DNA from: a virus
IMG/VR virus record: IMGVR_UViG_3300034198_021551
Location: 1 to 20,664 of that record
Direction: 5' to 3' (one strand)
Length of the DNA stretch: 20,664 nucleotides
Below are positions 2,582 through 19,948 of the stretch, one piece after another. Made by a program: the position numbers and the translations under genes. The notes under the pieces were generated by a model, which ran no database searches, was not told the DNA's origin, and saw only the letters and a program-made list of their open reading frames with translations. Position 1 is the stretch's first letter. The number at the start of each line of letters is the position of its first letter.

Positions 2582-4186
2582 ATGTCTGAATTTGAAATTT
2601 GTCGAGTGCATCCTCTCCTAGAGGACGCCAGAATTAACTGCACGTTTGACGACATTCTTGCAATGAATGATGCCGAGTTTGTCGCTTATGTTGCAGAGAT
2701 GCGGGAGGCATTTCTTCGGTATTGGGATACCGAAGGACTACCACCGCGGCGTGGGTGGACGTATTCCGAGATCGACGAAGAGTTTGGAAAGCTCTCTGGT
2801 TATGATGTGCAGAAGTTCTGGAAACAGGATGAACTGATTGAGAGCCGCCGCGTCATCCAGAATACGTCCACCGACGGCAATGCAGTCAATGCGTGGTTTG
2901 CAAGTTGGATGTACCAGACCCGCATCAATTACAACGAGAAGGACGAAGGGAAGAGCATCTATGACTTTTTCAAACGGGTCGATCTCTTTGAACGATATTT
3001 GCCTTATGCTCGCCGGCATTTTCTTCGTGATAGCTTCTATCTATTCGCGCAAAGTGTTCTAACCGGTAGTGCGCTCCCACATCATCCGGAGATGGTGCCG
3101 CAATCTGGATACGATTACGTTGTTGCATTCGATAAGCACGAGCGTATCTACGGGGAGTACGAACTTCTCATCGAACCAGTACTTGCAGAAAAGAGTGGAG
3201 ACTATTCGGGCTACGGTGGTAAGCTCCAGCAGAACAAACCACTGCGTCTGACGTTCGACGAGTACACGGACATTCGCGATCATCTACTACCGATGAGTGC
3301 GTCACGGAATGTGCAGGAGAAGCATCTCAACGATACGTATGTGTTCCATCTTCGGCAGTACAAGAAAGGTGAGCGACTGTTTCCGGCACTCTTCCGGTCG
3401 TTCCGTATCTCGATGTGTCAGTATGCGGTGAACTTCCCACCACTGACAGCGAAACTGCTCTATGAGACGTTCCTGTCGCACGTGACGACGCCGGTCGTGC
3501 ATATCTACGATCCGTCGTGTGGATGGGGTGGACGCATCTTGGGTGCGATGTCGTACAATCGACAACTCCCCAATGGTCAGATGCAGCACCTCTGCTATTA
3601 CGGCACTGATCCAAATCCTGCCTTCTACAAGAATGGGACAAGTACATATGCCGTTGTTGCAGACCACTACAACGCGGTACGTGTCGGACAATCGTTGTTT
3701 GACGTGCCGCATGAGTACACCGTCTACCAGCTTGGGAGTGAACTGTTTCATACGACAGACGCATTCCAGCGGAATCAAGGGAAGGGCGATCTCGTCTTCA
3801 CATCGCCGCCGTATTTTAACCGAGAAGCGTACAGCGAGGATGAGAATCAGTCCTACAAGAAGTTCAGCAGCTACGATGTGTGGCGTGATGAGTTTCTCCG
3901 TCCGACACTCAAGAACGCCTACGATTTCCTGAACCACGAACGCTATCTGCTCTGGAACATTGCCGACTTGAAGATGGGCAAGAACTACTTGCCGTTGGAA
4001 GAGGACAGCAAGAAGATCGCTCACGACCTCGGATTCGTCTACAAGGAAACGGTGCTGATGGCACTCGCGAGTATGCCAGGTGCGAATCGCGTGAACGAAG
4101 ACGGTACAGCAACGGCAAAAAACTTCTGTAAGGTCAACGGACGCATTCTGAAGTACGAACCGGTTCATGTATTCTGGAAGCCGTAA
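2582..4186 (+). CDS. DNA methyltransferase (TSPPY type, N4-cytosine/N6-adenine class) with a long N-terminal region
   Basis: Probable SAM-dependent DNA methylase acting on the exocyclic amine of cytosine or adenine. Residue numbers are for the 534-residue protein starting at 2582. The SAM-site motif DPSCGWGGR begins at about 310 and the catalytic motif TSPPYF is at about 407-412, with GTDPNPAFY between them, so the methylase domain fills the C-terminal half. The first 300 residues show no motif I recognise and may hold the target-recognition part. An in-frame ATG at 2573 would add three residues; I prefer 2582 because neither start has a Shine-Dalgarno site and a perfect TATAAT lies 7 bases before 2582. 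It follows gp46 closely on the same strand. Likely role: self-modification of phage DNA against host restriction; the specificity cannot be read from the sequence. Confidence 0.85.
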   Translation: MSEFEICRVHPLLEDARINCTFDDILAMNDAEFVAYVAEMREAFLRYWDTEGLPPRRGWTYSEIDEEFGKLSGYDVQKFWKQDELIESRRVIQNTSTDGNAVNAWFASWMYQTRINYNEKDEGKSIYDFFKRVDLFERYLPYARRHFLRDSFYLFAQSVLTGSALPHHPEMVPQSGYDYVVAFDKHERIYGEYELLIEPVLAEKSGDYSGYGGKLQQNKPLRLTFDEYTDIRDHLLPMSASRNVQEKHLNDTYVFHLRQYKKGERLFPALFRSFRISMCQYAVNFPPLTAKLLYETFLSHVTTPVVHIYDPSCGWGGRILGAMSYNRQLPNGQMQHLCYYGTDPNPAFYKNGTSTYAVVADHYNAVRVGQSLFDVPHEYTVYQLGSELFHTTDAFQRNQGKGDLVFTSPPYFNREAYSEDENQSYKKFSSYDVWRDEFLRPTLKNAYDFLNHERYLLWNIADLKMGKNYLPLEEDSKKIAHDLGFVYKETVLMALASMPGANRVNEDGTATAKNFCKVNGRILKYEPVHVFWKP

Positions 4187-4237
4187 ACGTAACACAAATA
4201 TAACACATACGTTACTCGGTTGTAACATACTGCGTAG

Positions 4238-4243
4238 TAAATA
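4238..4243 (+). promoter_or_regulatory. TAAATA box, candidate late promoter of the receptor gene
   Basis: TAAATA followed by C lies 30 bases before the receptor start. With T4-like spacing, transcription would begin near 4249, leaving a leader of about 24 nt that contains the AAGGAG ribosome site at 4262-4267. The rest of the 86-base gap after the methylase holds repeated TAACA-type words and a weak GTAAC/GTTAC inverted repeat, but no gene. Confidence 0.45.
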
Positions 4244-4272
4244 CCTTGCGGACCAGTCTACAAGGAGCAGAT

Positions 4273-7200
4273 ATGTTGAAGTACGTCACACAAGTTTTTC
4301 TTATGTGTATGTTGATGACAACCATCACGTATGCACAGCAGACAGAATCACGAATTATCGGAAAGATTACCGACACTACACGAGCCGTACTGCCTGGTGT
4401 GTCCATCACGGTCACGTCACACCAGACAGGAACGGCTCGTGTTGTTGTATCTGACAGTGTTGGTGTGTATGCTATTACCAATCTATCACCAGGCAAGTAT
4501 GCAGTTGACGCTATGCTTGACGGGTTCGCACCCACACATCGCGATATTGTGCTTGGAGTTGGACAGATTGAGACACTGGATGTGACGTTGAGTGTCGGAT
4601 TGACTGATGTGGTACAAGTAGATGCGAACGTACCTGTACTCGATATATCTTCTGCAAAGATTGGCGTGAATGTGTCGTCAGCAGAGATTGAAAGTCTTCC
4701 CGTCAATGGACGAAACTTCGCGAATCTAATGACGCTGGCTACGGGTGCCACTACAGATGGTAATGGTGGGTGGGCAACGGTTCGTTTCAATGGGAAGTCG
4801 AACCAACAAAACTATCTTAGCTATGACGGTGTTGACGGCACATATGTGTGGGATGCAACACCCAGTTATCTGAACGCAACGGGTTCGCAGTTTCGACTGC
4901 AAACATCAATGGAGGCGGTCGGAGAGTTTCGAGTGAATTCGGGTTTGGCACCGGCTGAGAGTGGATTGGGCTCAGGTGGCAACATTTCAGTTGTGACTAA
5001 AAGTGGGAGCAACCAACGTAGCGGGTCGGTGTTTACGTATCATCGTAATGACAAACTTGACGCGGTGAGTCCTTACGACAACGTGAAGCAACCGATGCGG
5101 CTGAATCAATTTGGAGGTTCTTTTGGTGGCCCACTCAAAGCGAATCGCACCTTTATATTCGGCAGCTATGAGGGATTGCGACAGACCACAGGTCTCTCGT
5201 TCACTGAAGCGGTGCCAAGCGACACGGCGCGCACACTAATTCTATCATCTGCAAATACCCGAACTCTGGCGGTCGCGCCACTGTTGTCTGGATTTCCACG
5301 CGGAACGACCCCCACGTCCAATCCTCTCGTCTCGCTCGCGACGAACTCCACCAATGCAACCCAGCGTGAACATAGCGCCGCATTTCGGTTTGACCAGACA
5401 ATTACGGCAAATCATTCGTTGTATCTGCGGTATCTCCGAAGCGATGGAACGCTCGACACGCCAGACCGCACGGTTACCCCAAGACGTATCCTTGCGCATG
5501 AACACGCGCAGAATGTCGTCGTTAACCTTCAGTCTATCTTTGGTCGGGCGGTCAATGAGTTGAAGCTCGGATACAATGTACCACACACAGATGCGACTGC
5601 GTATGGTCCTAGCGGATATGATGCCGTTGGGGTATCGCTATCGGGGTCATTTACGTCATCGTCTATTGATGCCCGTGGCACAACAGGTATTGCAAGAAGT
5701 GGATTGCTGATTCGCGCATCATCTGCATCATCCACGGTGGGTTCTGTATTTGCGCCGCAGTCGGTATCGTTTGCGGACACACTTACGTGGAATCGCAGTA
5801 ATCATACATTCAAGTTCGGAACCGAGTATCGAGCAATTCGTGGTGATTTCAAGTACCTTGATAGTACCGAGATTGCGTATAACAGCATCAATGATTTCAT
5901 TGCGAATACACCGAATTCGGTTGCGGTCGCACTGGACTCTCCAATGTTCAGTCCACGGCAATACTATCTCATCGGGTTCGCACAAGATTCATGGCGAATC
6001 ACACCACGCATGACCGCAGAACTCGGTTTACGCTACGATTTCTATTCGGTTGTTCGTGAAGCATACGGGCGGGCGCGTCCCTTCTTCGTTGAAGATAATG
6101 CCTTTGCAACAGATGCGAATAACTTCTACGATCCAGACTACAATAACGTCGCACCTCGAACATCTATATCGTATCAAGTGACACCAAAGACGGTTGTGCG
6201 TGGCGGATTTGGCATTTTCTACGGACCTGGCCAGTTTGAAGATCGTATTCAGCCCATCGAAAACTATATTCAGCGTCGAAAGGTCACTGCTGCGGATTTA
6301 CCTGCCGGACAATTAGCATACCCTGTACCCACATCCGCATACAAGGACATTCTTGCAATTCGTGGCTACACCCATCATCGCCCTGACGAATACAACGTCC
6401 AGTATGGAGGAAGTCTTTCGCGAGAGCTGCCCGGGTCAACCAGCCTGACTATTGGTTACACAGGTAGTCGCGGCCGCGACATGTTCTTACGAGGTGTAGG
6501 AAACACACTCGATACGACAACGCTCGTACGACTCGCGCCAAGTGTGGGACAGGTTGACTATAAAACATCTGGATGTCTCAATGGTCTGGTGATTGCGAAA
6601 ACCCCGATATATGGCTGTGGTGTGGCGGCATATGACGCGGTTCAACTCAATGCGACGCGTAGATTCCATCGCGGCGTTACTGCGGCTTTCCAGTATCAGT
6701 TTTCGCGAAATCGAGGCACGACACAAGGGTCAAACGAAGCCGCCACAACACAGAACACATTTGATTTTACGACAGAATACGGCACCAATCCGCAAGACAT
6801 CCCACACACGTTCAACGGGTCATTGGTCTATGACGTACACGGATGGCACATCGGCGCGATGGTGAATGCTCGGAGTGGTGTGCCATTGAATGTGACGATT
6901 AACCGACCCGATAACATCACGGTGAATGGGGTGACGGTTGCCAACATTCCCGGTGGAAATAGTCGAGGCACACAACGTCCTGATTTGATTCCGCATGTGA
7001 ATCCGTATCTCAAGGATGGTGTACGGTGGTTGAATCCTGCGGCGTTTGCTACACCGCAGCCCGGCACGTTTGGGAATCTCCCACGCAACTACCTCCGTGG
7101 TCCTGCGTTTTGGCAAACGGATGTTATGGTAAGCCGTGATATACATCGGATGCAATTTCGCGTAGACGTGTTCAATGTGCTGAATCACTTGAACTATGAG

Positions 7201-7359
7201 AATCCTGCCGTTAATCTGCCGAATGGAATTCCAGGCGTTCCGTTTAACTCGACAACTGCGGGCACATTTGGATACATTATGGGACCGCTTAATCGTACGG
7301 TTGGACTTGGCACCGCACGGCAAGTACAAGGTTCTATTCGCTATTCATTTGGACACTAA
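4273..7359 (+). CDS. Oar-like TonB-dependent outer-membrane receptor with carboxypeptidase-regulatory domain
   Basis: Outer-membrane beta-barrel transporter of 1028 residues. Seen: a signal peptide at residues 1-21 ending TYA before QQ; an immunoglobulin-like carboxypeptidase-regulatory domain at about 27-108 (IIGKITD, LPGVSITV, GVYAITNLSPGKYAV); a plug region from about 111 with SLPVNGRNFANLM; then GGNISVVTKSGSN, RNDKLDA, NQFGGSFGGPL and FIFGSYEGLR, words typical of acidobacterial Oar-like receptors; and a C-terminus ending YSFGH, with the aromatic residue near the end as in barrels recognised by the Bam machinery. No frameshift or stop is seen. The start at ATG 4273 has AAGGAG six bases upstream; an in-frame TTG at 4246 has no such site. 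The gene is flanked by phage recombination genes on the left and by Hsp20, Dps and gp32 on the right, so it is carried by the phage. Its substrate cannot be inferred. Confidence 0.92.
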   Translation: MLKYVTQVFLMCMLMTTITYAQQTESRIIGKITDTTRAVLPGVSITVTSHQTGTARVVVSDSVGVYAITNLSPGKYAVDAMLDGFAPTHRDIVLGVGQIETLDVTLSVGLTDVVQVDANVPVLDISSAKIGVNVSSAEIESLPVNGRNFANLMTLATGATTDGNGGWATVRFNGKSNQQNYLSYDGVDGTYVWDATPSYLNATGSQFRLQTSMEAVGEFRVNSGLAPAESGLGSGGNISVVTKSGSNQRSGSVFTYHRNDKLDAVSPYDNVKQPMRLNQFGGSFGGPLKANRTFIFGSYEGLRQTTGLSFTEAVPSDTARTLILSSANTRTLAVAPLLSGFPRGTTPTSNPLVSLATNSTNATQREHSAAFRFDQTITANHSLYLRYLRSDGTLDTPDRTVTPRRILAHEHAQNVVVNLQSIFGRAVNELKLGYNVPHTDATAYGPSGYDAVGVSLSGSFTSSSIDARGTTGIARSGLLIRASSASSTVGSVFAPQSVSFADTLTWNRSNHTFKFGTEYRAIRGDFKYLDSTEIAYNSINDFIANTPNSVAVALDSPMFSPRQYYLIGFAQDSWRITPRMTAELGLRYDFYSVVREAYGRARPFFVEDNAFATDANNFYDPDYNNVAPRTSISYQVTPKTVVRGGFGIFYGPGQFEDRIQPIENYIQRRKVTAADLPAGQLAYPVPTSAYKDILAIRGYTHHRPDEYNVQYGGSLSRELPGSTSLTIGYTGSRGRDMFLRGVGNTLDTTTLVRLAPSVGQVDYKTSGCLNGLVIAKTPIYGCGVAAYDAVQLNATRRFHRGVTAAFQYQFSRNRGTTQGSNEAATTQNTFDFTTEYGTNPQDIPHTFNGSLVYDVHGWHIGAMVNARSGVPLNVTINRPDNITVNGVTVANIPGGNSRGTQRPDLIPHVNPYLKDGVRWLNPAAFATPQPGTFGNLPRNYLRGPAFWQTDVMVSRDIHRMQFRVDVFNVLNHLNYENPAVNLPNGIPGVPFNSTTAGTFGYIMGPLNRTVGLGTARQVQGSIRYSFGH

Positions 7360-9723: not shown

Positions 9724-10399
9724 ACAATTGCTGCTCCTGTTCTGCGGGTGCGAGTGATGGTAATTGATACGATGCCCAGAATGACTGCGACAGCTTATAG
9801 GAGAACTGACGCCATGCGGTGCGACGCCAGCGAATAAGCTGATCCGCTTTCCGTAGTCTGGTAATCCACGGACGGATGCCAAAACTGCTATTTGCGGGTT
9901 CGGTTTCTTCATAATGCCGCGACCAGTGGTAACTGAATTCGTCACGCGGAATCAGCAAGAGCAAACACGCAAGGTCAATAGGTAGGTCTTTATTGATCAG
10001 ACTCTGAACGCAACCGGGGAGGACAGAGTCTTCGCTGCCGTACAGCCACTCGTAGAGGTCTTCAGGGCGCACGGACTTCCGAAGGTCGTACAATTCATGT
10101 GCGAACTGTGTCACACCATTCTCGGCACGAGACGCAAAGCGAATACCCGCATCCATATTCTCAGGTGTGCAGACATCCGCAATGTATGCGGTAGGTTTGT
10201 AGAAGTAGCTTACCAAGAACGTGGCATGAATCTGCTCGTCGTTTAGCTTTGTGGAGAGACGATAGTAGAACTGCCGGTCACGTTGCGAGATAAGCGGAGG
10301 AGTCTTGATATGACCACTATACTTCATGAAGTCATAGCTCTCGCTGGCGAAGTACATCCGATAGGACTTCGCGTACATAAACACATGTTCTGCGGTCAT
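9716..10399 (-). CDS. 59: gp59-like loader of the replicative helicase
   Basis: T4 gp59 binds fork DNA and gp32 and loads the gp41 helicase. This 227-residue protein is close to T4 gp59 in length (217). Similar to gp59 as I recall it: an all-helical, basic and aromatic-rich protein with an N-terminal pattern Y-x-x-Y-x-F-x-K-Y (YDFMKYSG), then RDRQFYYRLSTKLNDEQIHA, and FLVSYFYKPTAYIADV, which lines up with the gp59 segment ending in W-I-G-D-I. The identification also rests on position: it overlaps the gp33-like gene by one base (TAATG) and lies directly before gp32, as in T4. The C-terminal segment is rich in Arg and Trp. Confidence 0.85.
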   Translation of the reverse strand: MTAEHVFMYAKSYRMYFASESYDFMKYSGHIKTPPLISQRDRQFYYRLSTKLNDEQIHATFLVSYFYKPTAYIADVCTPENMDAGIRFASRAENGVTQFAHELYDLRKSVRPEDLYEWLYGSEDSVLPGCVQSLINKDLPIDLACLLLLIPRDEFSYHWSRHYEETEPANSSFGIRPWITRLRKADQLIRWRRTAWRQFSYKLSQSFWASYQLPSLAPAEQEQQLFA

Positions 10400-10623
10400 T
10401 AGAATGGCAGTTCGTTGCTTTTCTTGAGGAAGTGGAGACGATGCGCATCGTTCGCGAGTTCAGACTTGATCTTATCACCAAGTAGCGGTGCGATCAACTC
10501 TGGTTCAATCTTTCGCTGCTCACAGAAGTACAGTACGGCATCAAGGTACGTCATGCCCTTGTCCGTCACCAGTGAAAGAATGTGCTGTGCGAGTTTTTCT
10601 GATACGATAGTTTCAACAGGCAT
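10399..10623 (-). CDS. 33: gp33-like late transcription co-activator
   Basis: T4 gp33 bridges RNA polymerase and the sliding clamp and allows the gp55 sigma factor to fire late promoters. This 74-residue protein has the pattern shared by phage gp33 proteins as I recall them: MTYLDAVLYFCEQRKIEPE, then LLGDKIKSELANDAHRLHFL near the end. It overlaps gp59 by one base and keeps the T4 order 33-59-32. No Shine-Dalgarno site is visible before the ATG; the start lies about 20-40 bases after the last hairpin of the tmRNA coding half, so it may be expressed by read-through of that transcript. Its presence implies T4-type late promoters, consistent with the TAAATA boxes seen here. Confidence 0.85.
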   Translation of the reverse strand: MPVETIVSEKLAQHILSLVTDKGMTYLDAVLYFCEQRKIEPELIAPLLGDKIKSELANDAHRLHFLKKSNELPF

Positions 10624-10748
10624 GATGGTCTACACAGATATACACGCAAGATTATGTTGCGTCTATGGATACGCGCAACAATTAAGGTGCTGGTTTCTGT
10701 TGCCGAGAGAGCCAGCGTCTCCGACTGTCCGTAGACAATCAAGTGCGG

Positions 10749-10808
10749 CTACTAGGCCGCGAGTGCGTAACTGTTATCAGTTACTGTGTGTCTCTGTTTA
10801 ACGTCAGC
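10749..10808 (-). other. tmRNA tag reading frame (18 codons, tandem TAG stops)
   Basis: The resume codon is GCT after AAGTC, the same context as AGTC-GCA in E. coli. The frame encodes ADVKQRHTVTDNSYALAA, followed by TAG TAG. The terminal ALAA is the ClpXP/ClpAP recognition end, and NSYALAA resembles the E. coli end (ENYALAA). At 18 codons it is longer than the 10-codon E. coli tag reading frame. The resume codon is inferred by pattern only. Confidence 0.8.
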
Positions 10809-10869
10809 GACTTGACGATTGTCTCCATGTCGTTCTGCCAATACCCCGTCGAAGCCAGATCGCCCCCAT

Positions 10870-10984
10870 CATCAACACACCACATCACCACGCGCTACCC
10901 ACCCCAGTTTCCCCGTACAACGTCCACGTCAGCCGACGAATTAGGTTCTGGGCCTTAGCCTTGTCCGTGTGTGATGTGCTGATG
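10870..10984 (-). repeat. Structured RNA motif, copy 1, joining the two tmRNA halves
   Basis: Between CCA and the mature 5' G lies a stem-loop that continues the acceptor stem. A 14-bp helix (10984-10971 with 10883-10870, two G-U pairs) leads to an A opposite GTGAT, then CACG/CGTG, then conserved single strands (10965-10952 and 10901-10893), then an inner stem CCCAG/CTGGG. The strand at 10882-10901 is identical to 20291-20310, and 10952-10972 matches 20414-20434 with one change. The two copies share strand order but not the flanking stem sequences. Confidence 0.75.
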
Positions 10985-11045
10985 GTGGAGGCGGCGGGAG
11001 TCGAACCCGCGTCCGCGATATCCGTTCAACACTTCATCGACAATA

Positions 11046-11447
11046 TCAATATTTAGTCGGTATCTCGTTCAAATAGTTGATCGCGTTTTGTAATATTGTA
11101 GTGTTAGGAAATGCACCTAACGCTCGATTACATGTGTGACAGAGCCAGCCCCGGAATTCTTTTGTTTCGTGGTCGTGGTCTACCGTCCACGGTGATGTGA
11201 ATCTGTTTCCAGCATTTCTAACTTCGTCTTCTGTCTTTTGGCAGATGGGGCATGTATGATTTTTTGGTGACGGATACTGTTTGCGCAAGGCCTTGCGTTC
11301 GTTTGCCAACATACGTTCACATCGTTTGCACTCGGAACGAAGATAGTTGGCACCGCTGGCCACTGTGTATTCGTGTAATGGTAATTCGTTGCTACATTTA
11401 CTACACTTTTTGGTTTCCTCTGTAGAAGGCCCGAATAAAGTATCCAT
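11046..11447 (-). CDS. Endonuclease VII-like HNH nuclease with zinc ribbons
   Basis: 133 residues. Paired cysteines at 15/18, 40/43, 66/69 and 103/106 form zinc sites, and the catalytic segment VDHDHE (89-94) followed by GWLCHTCNRALG (100-111) is the hallmark of the recombination endonuclease VII family (T4 gp49 type), also found in free-standing homing nucleases. No clear ribosome site precedes the ATG. The base composition is visibly richer in A and T than its neighbours, which hints at later arrival. Its last codons (Thr-Lys-Tyr-stop) contain the CTAAATAT box that probably drives the tmRNA. Holliday-junction resolvase and homing nuclease are both possible; at 133 residues it is shorter than T4 gp49 (157). 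Confidence 0.85.
   Translation of the reverse strand: MDTLFGPSTEETKKCSKCSNELPLHEYTVASGANYLRSECKRCERMLANERKALRKQYPSPKNHTCPICQKTEDEVRNAGNRFTSPWTVDHDHETKEFRGWLCHTCNRALGAFPNTTILQNAINYLNEIPTKY
11049..11056 (-). promoter_or_regulatory. CTAAATAT box, candidate late promoter of the tmRNA
   Basis: The box lies inside the last codons of the HNH gene. With T4 late-promoter spacing (last A of the box at -6) transcription would start at 11044, exactly the first base of the helix-2 strand ATTGTC of the acceptor half. This fit supports both the promoter and the 5' end of the RNA. Confidence 0.55.
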
Positions 11448-12385: not shown

Positions 12386-12640
12386 CTATACATTGATGGT
12401 CGAACCACGATGTCGTTTCTTGATGTCTTTGAGAATCTCATTGAATCCGCCGGGGGTCTTCAGTCCCCCACGATTGATGCTATAGCTGACACCGGGCGCT
12501 GCGGCAAGACGTTCAATAGTCTCGCTCTTTCCACACTGTGGGCATACTTCCGACAGGGGATTGTCTCGGTCTGCGATAGGGAGTGAAACGTCGGTGACAG
12601 TGAATCCACAGTCTTTACATTGATAATCATACAGCGGCAT
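12386..12640 (-). CDS. FmdB-like zinc-ribbon protein, copy 1
   Basis: 84 residues starting MPLYDYQCKDCG, with Cys8/Cys11 and Cys33/Cys36 forming a single zinc ribbon, as in the FmdB family of putative regulatory proteins that recurs in T4-like phages. After the ribbon come a Gly-rich stretch and a basic tail (LKDIKKRHRG). The start has GGAG ten bases upstream, inside the short gap after the glycosyltransferase-like gene. A second member of the family lies at 16616-16801. The biochemical role of phage members is not established; nucleic-acid or protein binding is likely. Confidence 0.85.
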   Translation of the reverse strand: MPLYDYQCKDCGFTVTDVSLPIADRDNPLSEVCPQCGKSETIERLAAAPGVSYSINRGGLKTPGGFNEILKDIKKRHRGSTINV

Positions 12641-13370: not shown

Positions 13371-13874
13371 CTAGATAACCAGATGACGAACGTCCACAAA
13401 GTTGCTCAGTACCGATGTATGTGGTGACAGTGCGGTAAAGTCGAATCGGTATTTGAAGAGATGGAATATTTCACTGAACTGGTAATAATGCTCGTATTTA
13501 GGGTCGGTGTCATGGATGATGACATACTTCGCGTGATTGGCAAGACGCGCCGCATCAAACTTTCGCCGCACAAGTGGGCCATGATCCACGAATGCAATTT
13601 CCCATGGCTTCTCAATATCCGCGAGGTCGAAATTACGAAGTTCGTGGACTTCATGAAAATCGTTTTCGAATTGTTTTGCAGGTCGCGCCCACTTTCCCCA
13701 ATGGTCGTAGGAGACGAGCTTGCGCCGCGTCGGGGCACACGCGTAATGCAGATACGTGGTGCTGTAGAACCCTGTCCCAAGTTCGAGAATCGGCCCAGTG
13801 GTTTCCCGTACCAGCTTCATTAGCACGGGAAAATGTGTGGCGGGTTCAAAGTAGTAGGGAAGAACTTTTGCCAT
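13371..13874 (-). CDS. Class I methyltransferase-fold protein, paralogue A
   Basis: 167 residues. Motif I is ILELGTGFYST at about 29-39, followed by a strand ending in VSYDH (55-58 region), as in Rossmann-fold methyltransferases that bind SAM; AFVDHGPL and VIIHDTDP are plausible motifs II/III. It is clearly paralogous to the next gene upstream (13893-14390): ETTGxILELGTGxYST, HYAC/HFAC, VSYDH, AKQFExDxH and VLSNxxD are shared in order. The substrate is unknown; similar phage proteins sit beside glycosyltransferases. The start at 13874 follows a long palindrome, so this gene may be transcribed separately or attenuated relative to its paralogue. Confidence 0.75.
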   Translation of the reverse strand: MAKVLPYYFEPATHFPVLMKLVRETTGPILELGTGFYSTTYLHYACAPTRRKLVSYDHWGKWARPAKQFENDFHEVHELRNFDLADIEKPWEIAFVDHGPLVRRKFDAARLANHAKYVIIHDTDPKYEHYYQFSEIFHLFKYRFDFTALSPHTSVLSNFVDVRHLVI

Positions 13875-13889
13875 ATTAGAACGAGAGGG

Positions 13890-13932
13890 TTGTCAGATCG
13901 ATCGATCGATCTGACAAGTTGTCAGATCGATC
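13890..13932. repeat. 28-bp perfect palindrome plus a third half-arm, with six GATC sites
   Basis: 13890-13917 is perfectly self-complementary: arm TTGTCAGATCGATC followed by its reverse complement. One base later the same 14-base arm is repeated (13919-13932), so the second and third arms form another inverted repeat with a one-base spacer. The left part encodes the end of paralogue B; the stop of that gene is inside the palindrome. Six GATC sites fall within about 38 bases. It could act as a terminator-like hairpin in the RNA or as a binding or methylation site in the DNA. Confidence 0.85.
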
Positions 13933-14390
13933 AGATTACTGACCAGAACGGTACGCTTGTTCATGAGACCGTGATACGTGATGCCGTAAAGGAACTTAGC
14001 ATTGATGGCTTTAAGCAGAGCATCATCCACATCGGGAATGACGATATAATTAGCCCACCATGCGAGACGCTTGATTTCCTCGATTCGACGCTCACGCGGT
14101 GAGTGGTCGATGAGTGCGACGTCCCAATGCCGTTGAATGTCGATGTGTGCCCAATTCTCAACCATGTAGATGGCATGGTAGTCAGATTCAAACTGCTTGG
14201 CCGCACGATAGTATTCCGGATCGTGATCATAGGACACGATCTCTCGCTTGTTTGAATAACACGCGAAGTGTATCAGCGGTGTGCTGTACTGTCCTGTACC
14301 AAGTTCGAGAATGCGACCAGTTGTCTCATCGAGAACGCGCATCGTCACCGTGAGGTGACTAGAGTTGTCCGCGTAGTATTTCAGTTCCAT
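13893..14390 (-). CDS. Class I methyltransferase-fold protein, paralogue B
   Basis: 165 residues, tandem paralogue of the gene at 13371-13874. Motif I is RILELGTGQYST (26-37), followed by VSYDHDPEYY (52-61), whose acidic residues would bind the SAM ribose, then WDVALIDHSP and YIVIPDVDD. The last residues (TCQIDRSI) are encoded by the palindromic repeat and extend past where paralogue A ends, so the C-terminal tail appears to be a by-product of the repeat. A weak GG-rich ribosome site precedes the ATG. Likely a modification enzyme of small molecules, sugars or protein; no target can be named. Confidence 0.75.
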   Translation of the reverse strand: MELKYYADNSSHLTVTMRVLDETTGRILELGTGQYSTPLIHFACYSNKREIVSYDHDPEYYRAAKQFESDYHAIYMVENWAHIDIQRHWDVALIDHSPRERRIEEIKRLAWWANYIVIPDVDDALLKAINAKFLYGITYHGLMNKRTVLVSNLIDLTTCQIDRSI

Positions 14391-16615: not shown

Positions 16616-16801
16616 TCATCCACGCGAGTACTGATTCTTCGCGTTGAATCCTTTGATCACAAATCCGCCCGCTGCGGGTTTTCGTTCCACCTTCTTTTTA
16701 CAGGTCGGGCATCGTGCTTCATGTTCCGCACGTTCGAGTGACGGAAACATCATCTCCGTGACCGCATCACACTTCTTGCAATAGAATTCCCAAATGGGCA
16801 T
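16616..16801 (-). CDS. FmdB-like zinc-ribbon protein, copy 2
   Basis: 61 residues starting MPIWEFYCKKCD, with Cys8/Cys11 and Cys31/Cys34, the same layout as copy 1 at 12386-12640, followed by basic residues (KKKVERKPAAGG) and a conserved-looking Gly/Phe tail. It starts two bases after the stop of the upstream methyltransferase-fold gene. Both copies lie next to glycosyltransferase or methyltransferase genes. The role is unknown. Confidence 0.83.
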   Translation of the reverse strand: MPIWEFYCKKCDAVTEMMFPSLERAEHEARCPTCKKKVERKPAAGGFVIKGFNAKNQYSRG

Positions 16802-17403: not shown

Positions 17404-17477
17404 TGGCTGAGATGCTAGGATTCAAACCTAGACCAAGAGGGTCAAAGCCTCGTGTGCTATCATTACACCACATCCCA
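17404..17477 (-). tRNA. tRNA-Gln (anticodon TTG) with encoded CCA
   Basis: 74 nt folding as a cloverleaf: acceptor TGGGATG/CATCTCA with U1-A72, the tRNA-Gln feature; D-stem GTGT/GCAC; anticodon stem CGAGG/CCTCT with one C-U mismatch at the top; loop CTTTGAC giving anticodon TTG; T-arm CTAGG-TTTGAAT-CCTAG; discriminator G and an encoded CCA. The D-loop (AATGATA) has only one G of the usual GG pair. It reads CAA codons and could supplement the host. Confidence 0.9.
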
Positions 17478-19201: not shown

Positions 19202-19948
19202 ATGATCTCATTTCGCGAACATCTTGCTCTTACTGAAGGGGTCGATGACCCCGGCATTCTCAAATGCGTGTTTATGGCCGGTGGGCCCGGTAGTGGAAAA
19301 TCGACGGCCGCAGAGGAACTATTTGGCATCGATCCCAAGATCAAAAGCTCCTTCAGCACCTATGGTCTCAAGGTGGTGAACTCAGACCGAGAGTTTGAAC
19401 GACTGCTCAAACTGCACGGTGTTCCAACAGACTTGGACACGCTCAAAACCACGAATCCCACACAGTATAATTGGGCGATGGAATTGCGCGGTCATGCGAA
19501 AGACACGACGACGAAACTCCGCGCACAATATGAACAGGGTCGTCTGGGGTTGATCATCGATGGTACGGGTCGGGACTATGACGATATTCGTGATCAACGT
19601 GAGCAATCTATGGCGATGGGATACGACTGCTACATGGTGTTTGTTAACACCGAGCTTGATGTGGCACTAGAGCGGAATCGTCGGCGGAGTGTTGCGGGTG
19701 GTCGGACGGTTGGCGAGGACATCGTCAAAGAGTTTTGGGAAGCGTGTCAGCGAAATCTTGGCAAGTTCCAGCGACTCTTTGGGGGGACGAATTTTCTGGT
19801 GGTCGATTCGCGAAACGACAAAGACAAAAATCGGCATATTCTTGAATTGTCGGGTAAAGCTATTCGTCGATGGGTTGCCGAACCGGTGAAGAATCATCGC
19901 GGCGCTCAATGGATTCGACTCATGGGGGGTCGTCACGGTCACCACTAA
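19202..19948 (+). CDS. P-loop kinase (zeta-toxin-like/polynucleotide-kinase-like fold)
   Basis: 248 residues. The Walker A motif is AGGPGSGKST at 26-35, LKVVNSDREFERLL (56-69 region) holds an acidic acceptor-site Asp, GLIIDGTGRDYDDI is a Walker-B-like strand, and LERNRRRSVAGGRTV is the Arg-rich lid. This is the phage kinase family related to zeta toxins and T4-type polynucleotide kinases; similar genes are common in T4-like phages as I recall them. The N-terminus MISFREHLALTEG is unusual: LTE-G at 10-13 fits the T4 prohead protease site (L/I-x-E before A/G), so the first 12 residues may be a capsid-targeting sequence. The phosphorylated substrate is unknown. Confidence 0.87.
   Translation: MISFREHLALTEGVDDPGILKCVFMAGGPGSGKSTAAEELFGIDPKIKSSFSTYGLKVVNSDREFERLLKLHGVPTDLDTLKTTNPTQYNWAMELRGHAKDTTTKLRAQYEQGRLGLIIDGTGRDYDDIRDQREQSMAMGYDCYMVFVNTELDVALERNRRRSVAGGRTVGEDIVKEFWEACQRNLGKFQRLFGGTNFLVVDSRNDKDKNRHILELSGKAIRRWVAEPVKNHRGAQWIRLMGGRHGHH

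Follow-up and report, generated by a model that had tools for sequence, protein, structure and literature searches.

Permuted tmRNA gene in the virus record

The locus analysed here raises the question of whether a phage can carry a working tmRNA gene whose two halves stand in reversed order and, if so, what the segment between the halves represents. The window, which is the whole 20,664-base virus record, contains a circularly permuted tmRNA gene on its minus strand at approximately 11045-10689. The 3′ tRNA-like half with its CCA comes before the 5′ half on the same strand. Such a gene had been proposed in the initial annotation, with covariance models and the permuted mode of ARAGORN on the minus strand named as the check, and two independent programs now bear it out. 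ARAGORN called a permuted tmRNA at c[10661,11075] with the tag DNSYALAA followed by two stops, while the Rfam model RF04321 (tmRNA_permuted) matched over its full length at 11045-10752 on the minus strand with 91 bits (E 1e-16; gathering score 47). The ends that had been given for the pieces were right, as the sequence places the CCA end at 10983 and the start of the 5′ acceptor strand at 10867. The span originally assigned to the gene (10645-11046) holds for about 11045-10689; positions 10645-10688 are not part of the tmRNA because the 3′ end of the mature 5′ piece is probably close to 10689, and they form a separate downstream hairpin. The same locus was recovered again in the IMG/VR contig L392, which matches the window at 99.97% identity across 11.6 kb. 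The features of the gene are as follows.

10983-11045, minus strand: tmRNA 3′ (acceptor) piece, matched by RF04321 and identical at 68/68 positions in phage contig L379, with a putative 5′ end at about 11045; it contains helix-2 strands, the T-arm (11010-10994), the acceptor 3′ strand (10993-10987), the discriminator A and the CCA (10985-10983)
10868-10982, minus strand: intervening sequence (IVS) of 115 nt, folding as a non-coding hairpin that extends the acceptor stem
10689-10867, minus strand: tmRNA 5′ piece, from RF04321 and a nine-gene phage alignment, with a putative 3′ end; it contains the acceptor 5′ strand (10867-10861), the D-loop (10860-10848), helix-2 strands, PK1, the tag frame and the distal pseudoknot
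10749-10778, minus strand: tag reading frame DNSYALAA with resume codon GAU and stops TAG TAG, from ARAGORN
10689-10722, minus strand: distal H-type pseudoknot GGAGA/UCUCU + GCUGG/CCAGC, both stems of which covary in relative L005
10652-10683, minus strand: hairpin TGTTGCG/CGCAACA 3′ of the tmRNA, read from the sequence

The acceptor stem GGGGGCG/CGCCTCC forms seven pairs including G3-U70 and is followed by the discriminator A and CCA, the features of alanine identity. Both the T-arm (GCGGG-TTCGACT-CCCGC) and the D-loop (ATCTGGCTTCGAC) are canonical. Three helix-2 blocks pair across the halves, namely CGGGGTA/TATCGCG, ACAT/GTGT and GACAAT/ATTGTC, and the first of these, which lies nearest the D-loop, has one mismatch. 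The earlier description of intact stems thus stands for the acceptor stem, T-arm and D-loop, and needs this one mismatch added for helix 2. The hairpin at 10652-10683 is a possible processing or weak termination signal, judging from its bases; terminator prediction made no call on it.

Conservation in related phages

Five close IMG/VR relatives of the window (L002-L006) were found through gp32, with identities of 66-80%. Each gave an RF04321 match (88.6-94.3 bits) at the position that the tmRNA has in the window, flanked by the nuclease gene and gp33, and each exceeded the 50-bit cut-off of the alphaproteobacterial model, at 52-82 bits. Taken alone, ARAGORN would have left these relatives without a tmRNA, a reading that was rejected in view of the Rfam matches; the miss is probably due to their noncanonical T-loop, or to the 6-nt loop in L005 and L006.

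In the alignment of nine genes, all of them related, 468 of the 522 helix cells were standard pairs (90%) and 19 base pairs had changed on both sides. These double-sided changes include helix 2, PK1, the hairpin over the tag stop and the distal pseudoknot, whose stems read CGGU/ACCG and GGCGU/ACGCC in L005. The 7-bp hairpin GATTGTC/GACAGTC had a poor pair count because of alignment gaps; by eye the relatives hold a hairpin there, and it was not counted as support. The alignment also placed the tags of the relatives (DYQFALAA, VNQFAYAA and DNQFALAA) in register with DNSYALAA. Since the usual tag start GCA-AAC is absent, the resume codon reads as GAU, GAC or GUG. The kept helices and pseudoknots, the compensatory changes and the in-register tag agree with the earlier view, likewise drawn from sequence, that the gene looks functional.

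T-loop and D-loop types

The T-loop GGCAGTA was found in most of the phage genes, including L002-L004. It was rejected as a phage novelty, being the normal loop of many alphaproteobacterial tmRNAs. The window instead has the T-loop TTCGACT with GG in the D-loop. The match between the two loops was near-perfect (RGCANTA with AG, TTCGA with GG) and resembles tertiary covariation. An RGCANTA-type T-loop occurred with AG in 257 of 258 cases, and only this side is unbiased, because the scans for canonical loops required GG in their pattern; the window, L005 and L045 are the only TTCGA/GG genes found without that constraint. In the permuted gene the T-arm, IVS and D-loop lie side by side, and the nearest whole-locus relatives of the window (L002 and L003) have alpha loops, so the three elements may have been exchanged in one event.

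Gene neighbourhood and promoter motif

PHROGs matches to gp46, gp32, gp59, gp33 and endonuclease VII in the window confirmed the assignment to a T4-like phage. The neighbours of the tmRNA gene are listed below.

11046-11447, minus strand: endonuclease VII-like gene, immediately upstream of the tmRNA (PHROG 2633, E 7.8e-24)
11050-11056, minus strand: CTAAATA motif, likely a phage (late-type) promoter element for the tmRNA, from its over-representation
10399-10623, minus strand: gp33-like late-transcription coactivator, the next gene downstream (PHROG 254, E 1.5e-14)

A permuted tmRNA next to gp33-gp59-gp32 had been thought unusual. This did not hold, because Melnitz and the IMG/VR loci already show two-piece tmRNA genes in the gp33 slot. 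In the Methylophilales phage Melnitz, a two-piece ssrA immediately precedes the gene of the late-transcription coactivator, and in that study two-piece genes made up 53 of 133 unique phage tmRNA structures (PMC9004378). In our own data, the gene order of the Melnitz record MZ577097 (nuclease, ssrA, gp33, gp59, gp32) is that of the window, L002-L006 share the slot, and gp33 lies downstream within 1.5 kb in 77 of 135 viral permuted tmRNA loci in IMG/VR. A phage permuted tmRNA beside gp33 is therefore already known, and as a single gene the window adds one more phage two-piece tmRNA in a slot where such genes are often found.

The T4 late promoter has the core TAAATA. The motif CTAAATA occurs six times in the window against 1.0 expected, a count reached in 0 of 100 shuffles. 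Its positions include 7356, 7951, 9708 and 11050, and it lies upstream of hsp20, dps, gp32 and the tmRNA acceptor piece; the copy upstream of the tmRNA is also kept in the relative L379. By analogy with the T4 late consensus TATAAATA, CTAAATA is a candidate phage promoter motif, and its resemblance to the T4 core makes late expression a reasonable supposition. No SmpB gene was found in the window, in six related viral records or in Melnitz, so the phage would rely on host SmpB.

Several other genes were observed in the window. A full-length TonB-dependent receptor-like gene of 1037 aa (4246-7359, plus strand; PF25183 1-838/838, with a carboxypeptidase regulatory-like domain) is placed between a methyltransferase gene and hsp20 and is present in L392 too; it was not in that slot in L005 or L006, and a search of 14 further records did not find it. 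Receptors of this kind are typically found in Acidobacteriota. At 13371-13874 and 13893-14390 (minus strand) lie two neighbouring small genes that resemble each other and have the look of methyltransferase-type paralogues, both with a TTGxILELGTGxYST stretch. Two small zinc-ribbon proteins (FmdB-like, PF09723) are encoded at 12386-12640 and 16616-16801 (minus strand), and a P-loop kinase-like gene with Zeta toxin/AAA_33 matches at 19202-19948 (plus strand). A tRNA-Gln(UUG) at 17404-17477 (minus strand) was the sole other RNA gene found in the window.

Intervening sequences as exchangeable cassettes

The IVS of the window folds strongly. Together with the acceptor strands (133 nt), it reached -66.5 kcal/mol, with a z of -6.2 against shuffles. 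A search of it for ATG open reading frames (ORFs) gave none; the only frame there, of 36 aa from a GTG, was rejected as it enters the mature 5′ piece and has no Shine-Dalgarno sequence. When compared with phage contig L379, the acceptor piece was identical (68/68) and the 5′ piece 91% identical, whereas the IVS was unrelated, that of L379 being 93 nt long and open in one frame (MITFGICWGILAAVNLYYHG...). The other genes of L379 are 29-69% alike with those of the window.

This swap between the window (or L392) and L379, with kept mature pieces and unrelated IVSs, is one of 56 pairs of viral loci in which near-identical mature pieces enclose unrelated IVSs. The pieces of L125 and L131 are identical over the compared stretches, while one IVS holds a 37-aa membrane-like ORF and the other a PKYL ORF. 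The reverse was also observed, as the IVSs of L131 and L134 are 96% alike on backbones that are only 78% and 63% alike. Many IVS ends pair and lengthen the acceptor stem, which may be what makes the IVSs interchangeable. From these comparisons, the IVS of phage permuted tmRNA genes appears to be an exchangeable cassette, often with a small protein gene, and this looks new.

Small protein genes in viral intervening sequences

The loci were collected with T-arm patterns, near-duplicates included, so the counts given here describe this sample and not all phages. A looser regular expression for permuted tmRNA was discarded in favour of a stricter one after it returned false bacterial matches with IVSs of hundreds of nucleotides. 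The viral IVSs (167 loci) had a median length of about 95 nt and a range of 3-277 nt, and 84 distinct IVSs were at least 60 nt long; the median was 28 nt in the 107 alphaproteobacterial-type loci sampled. The shortest viral case, a 3-nt IVS (CAT), was seen in the permuted tmRNA genes of L094, L101 and L123. After collapsing at 80% identity, 69 long viral IVSs remained, and 18 of these were filled to at least 60% by an ORF with an ATG and a Shine-Dalgarno sequence. The same search in dinucleotide shuffles gave a mean of 0.45 and a maximum of 3, and none of the 107 sampled alphaproteobacterial-type permuted tmRNAs had an IVS ORF preceded by a Shine-Dalgarno sequence. IVS protein genes were seen in L084, L085, L087, L095, L097, L104, L107, L113 and L290, among others, and further ones in L296, L297, L320, L341, L350 and L358, among others.

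The recurring ORF families are mutually unrelated. In family A, of 69-73 aa with one apparent membrane segment, informative pairs gave a pN/pS of 0.07-0.43. The members of family B, apparent membrane proteins of small size, carry WSICAD (0.19-0.67), and those of family C, among them the Melnitz protein, terminate in PKYLxG (0.29-0.65). A pN/pS of 0.19 was obtained for family E. Family F terminates in MGAK, and its stop codon already belongs to the mature 5′ piece (informative pairs, 0.34-0.45). Most informative pairs of families A, B, E and F lie at about 0.07-0.45; ratios this low indicate purifying selection on several IVS ORF families. None of the ten IVS ORF proteins compared with PHROGs gave a match, and families A and B found no counterpart among 50,697 phage genomes. 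The IVS of Melnitz (L142, approximately 4130-4271; MZ577097.1) contains an unannotated ORF (MFKWLSKTRLVVITRDYFRERNRKADAKIPKYLSGTRS...), preceded by a Shine-Dalgarno sequence, that spans the RNase P site. The Melnitz record MZ577097.1 lacks locus tags 87 and 88.

Protein genes within a tmRNA IVS were not mentioned in the tmRNA and phage papers that could be searched in full text. A 2025 tmRNA database paper mentions a tRNA gene in one IVS and a repetitive element in another (PMC11915505).

The spacer of phage permuted tmRNA genes appears to be a hypervariable slot that is often coding, as in the cultured phage Melnitz. A wider reading, which we put forward tentatively and rate at somewhat under an even chance, is that the IVS has evolved as a cargo slot, in which cassettes with paired ends are recombined between backbones and tmRNA processing frees a message for a small protein. 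Of its elements, the exchange of cassettes and the protein-coding character of several ORF families have support from the sequence comparisons. If it is true, IVS proteins are predicted to be often membrane-protein-like, with their expression tied to tmRNA maturation; the cut within an ORF that crosses the RNase P site, as in Melnitz, would yield a non-stop message, and the 115-nt hairpin of the window would be a non-coding cassette of the slot. A permuted gene could be of advantage to a phage with a compact genome, as a discarded spacer becomes usable space, and the IVS location hides small proteins from annotation. It also raises the question of whether tmRNA maturation controls the expression of IVS proteins.

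Proposed function and alternative explanations

We consider it very probable that the locus encodes a functional two-piece tmRNA of a T4-like phage, belonging to a gp33-slot lineage with a freely exchanged IVS and acting in host-dependent ribosome rescue. Gene order, structure, tag, conservation, slot and cassette exchange are read from the sequences, and from them we infer how transcription, processing, charging, SmpB use and rescue would proceed. Transcription would start from the CTAAATA element and give a precursor predicted to run from the acceptor piece through the IVS to the tag-bearing piece. Host RNase P would cut at 10867 and host 3′ processing would act at 10983, with the IVS discarded, and the two pieces are expected to re-pair through helix 2 and the acceptor stem. 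Charging by host alanyl-tRNA synthetase would follow from G3-U70. Host SmpB would then bring the tmRNA to ribosomes stalled on broken mRNA during infection, where it would append DNSYALAA and supply a stop codon. A role in ribosome rescue on host transcripts cleaved during infection, as suggested earlier, is plausible.

The main rivals are a relic or decoy and an integration-site copy, and both are disfavoured by the conserved mRNA-like half and the slot. A captured tmRNA that performs no protein tagging, or that mainly titrates host SmpB, has a precedent in mycobacteriophage DS6A, whose tmRNA consists only of the tRNA-like domain and inhibits host tmRNA (PMC11915505, PMC4131195), and it would fit phage records in which the search found no SmpB. 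Since a decoy would need neither a tag frame nor an mRNA-like part, the retention of the tag frame and stop in relatives and the structural constraint on the entire mRNA-like part, pseudoknots included, make this explanation unlikely.

tmRNA genes are common attachment sites. Phages can carry ssrA copies that restore the host gene after prophage insertion (PMC11590407), yet here the phage is T4-like, no integrase was noticed among the ORFs of the window, and the gene is complete, internal, set beside replication and late-transcription genes and found in the same slot in many relatives, so that such an origin is very improbable. We give equally little credence to the idea that the locus serves to make the long IVS hairpin as a regulatory RNA, with the tmRNA halves mainly as its carriers. 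The fold, far better than shuffles (z -6.2 with the acceptor), and the varied, often coding IVS content of the relatives speak for it; the mature halves are nevertheless the conserved part, the IVS is replaced between near-identical genes, and it measures merely 3-11 nt in some relatives.

Comparison with known systems

The closest known counterpart of this functional two-piece tmRNA is that of Melnitz, which is also phage-encoded and permuted, has a long IVS (142 nt) and shares the slot, with a PD-(D/E)XK nuclease gene in front of it and gp33, gp59 and gp32 behind. Melnitz differs in its alpha-type T-loop GGCAGTA and its unannotated IVS ORF with a Shine-Dalgarno sequence, whereas the window has the canonical T-loop TTCGACT, an 8-codon tag from GAU and a non-coding IVS. 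The alphaproteobacterial two-piece tmRNA (RF01849, alpha_tmRNA, merged in RF04321) shares the permutation, the helix-2 layout and a distal pseudoknot containing GGCAACAGAA; in contrast, the window was not listed by that model at gathering, falling below its cut-off of 50 bits, and the sampled bacterial IVSs are short, with 0/107 holding an ORF preceded by a Shine-Dalgarno sequence. Canonical T- and D-loops are shared with the betaproteobacterial type (RF01850, beta_tmRNA), and the ARAGORN tag list gives Herminiimonas and relatives as tag matches. The window scores 61.8 bits with that model, under the cut-off of 84, and its body is homologous to the alpha-type phage genes of L002-L004. One-piece phage tmRNAs (RF00023, for example in L018 and L053) are likewise phage-encoded on T4-like contigs, but have the standard order and no IVS.
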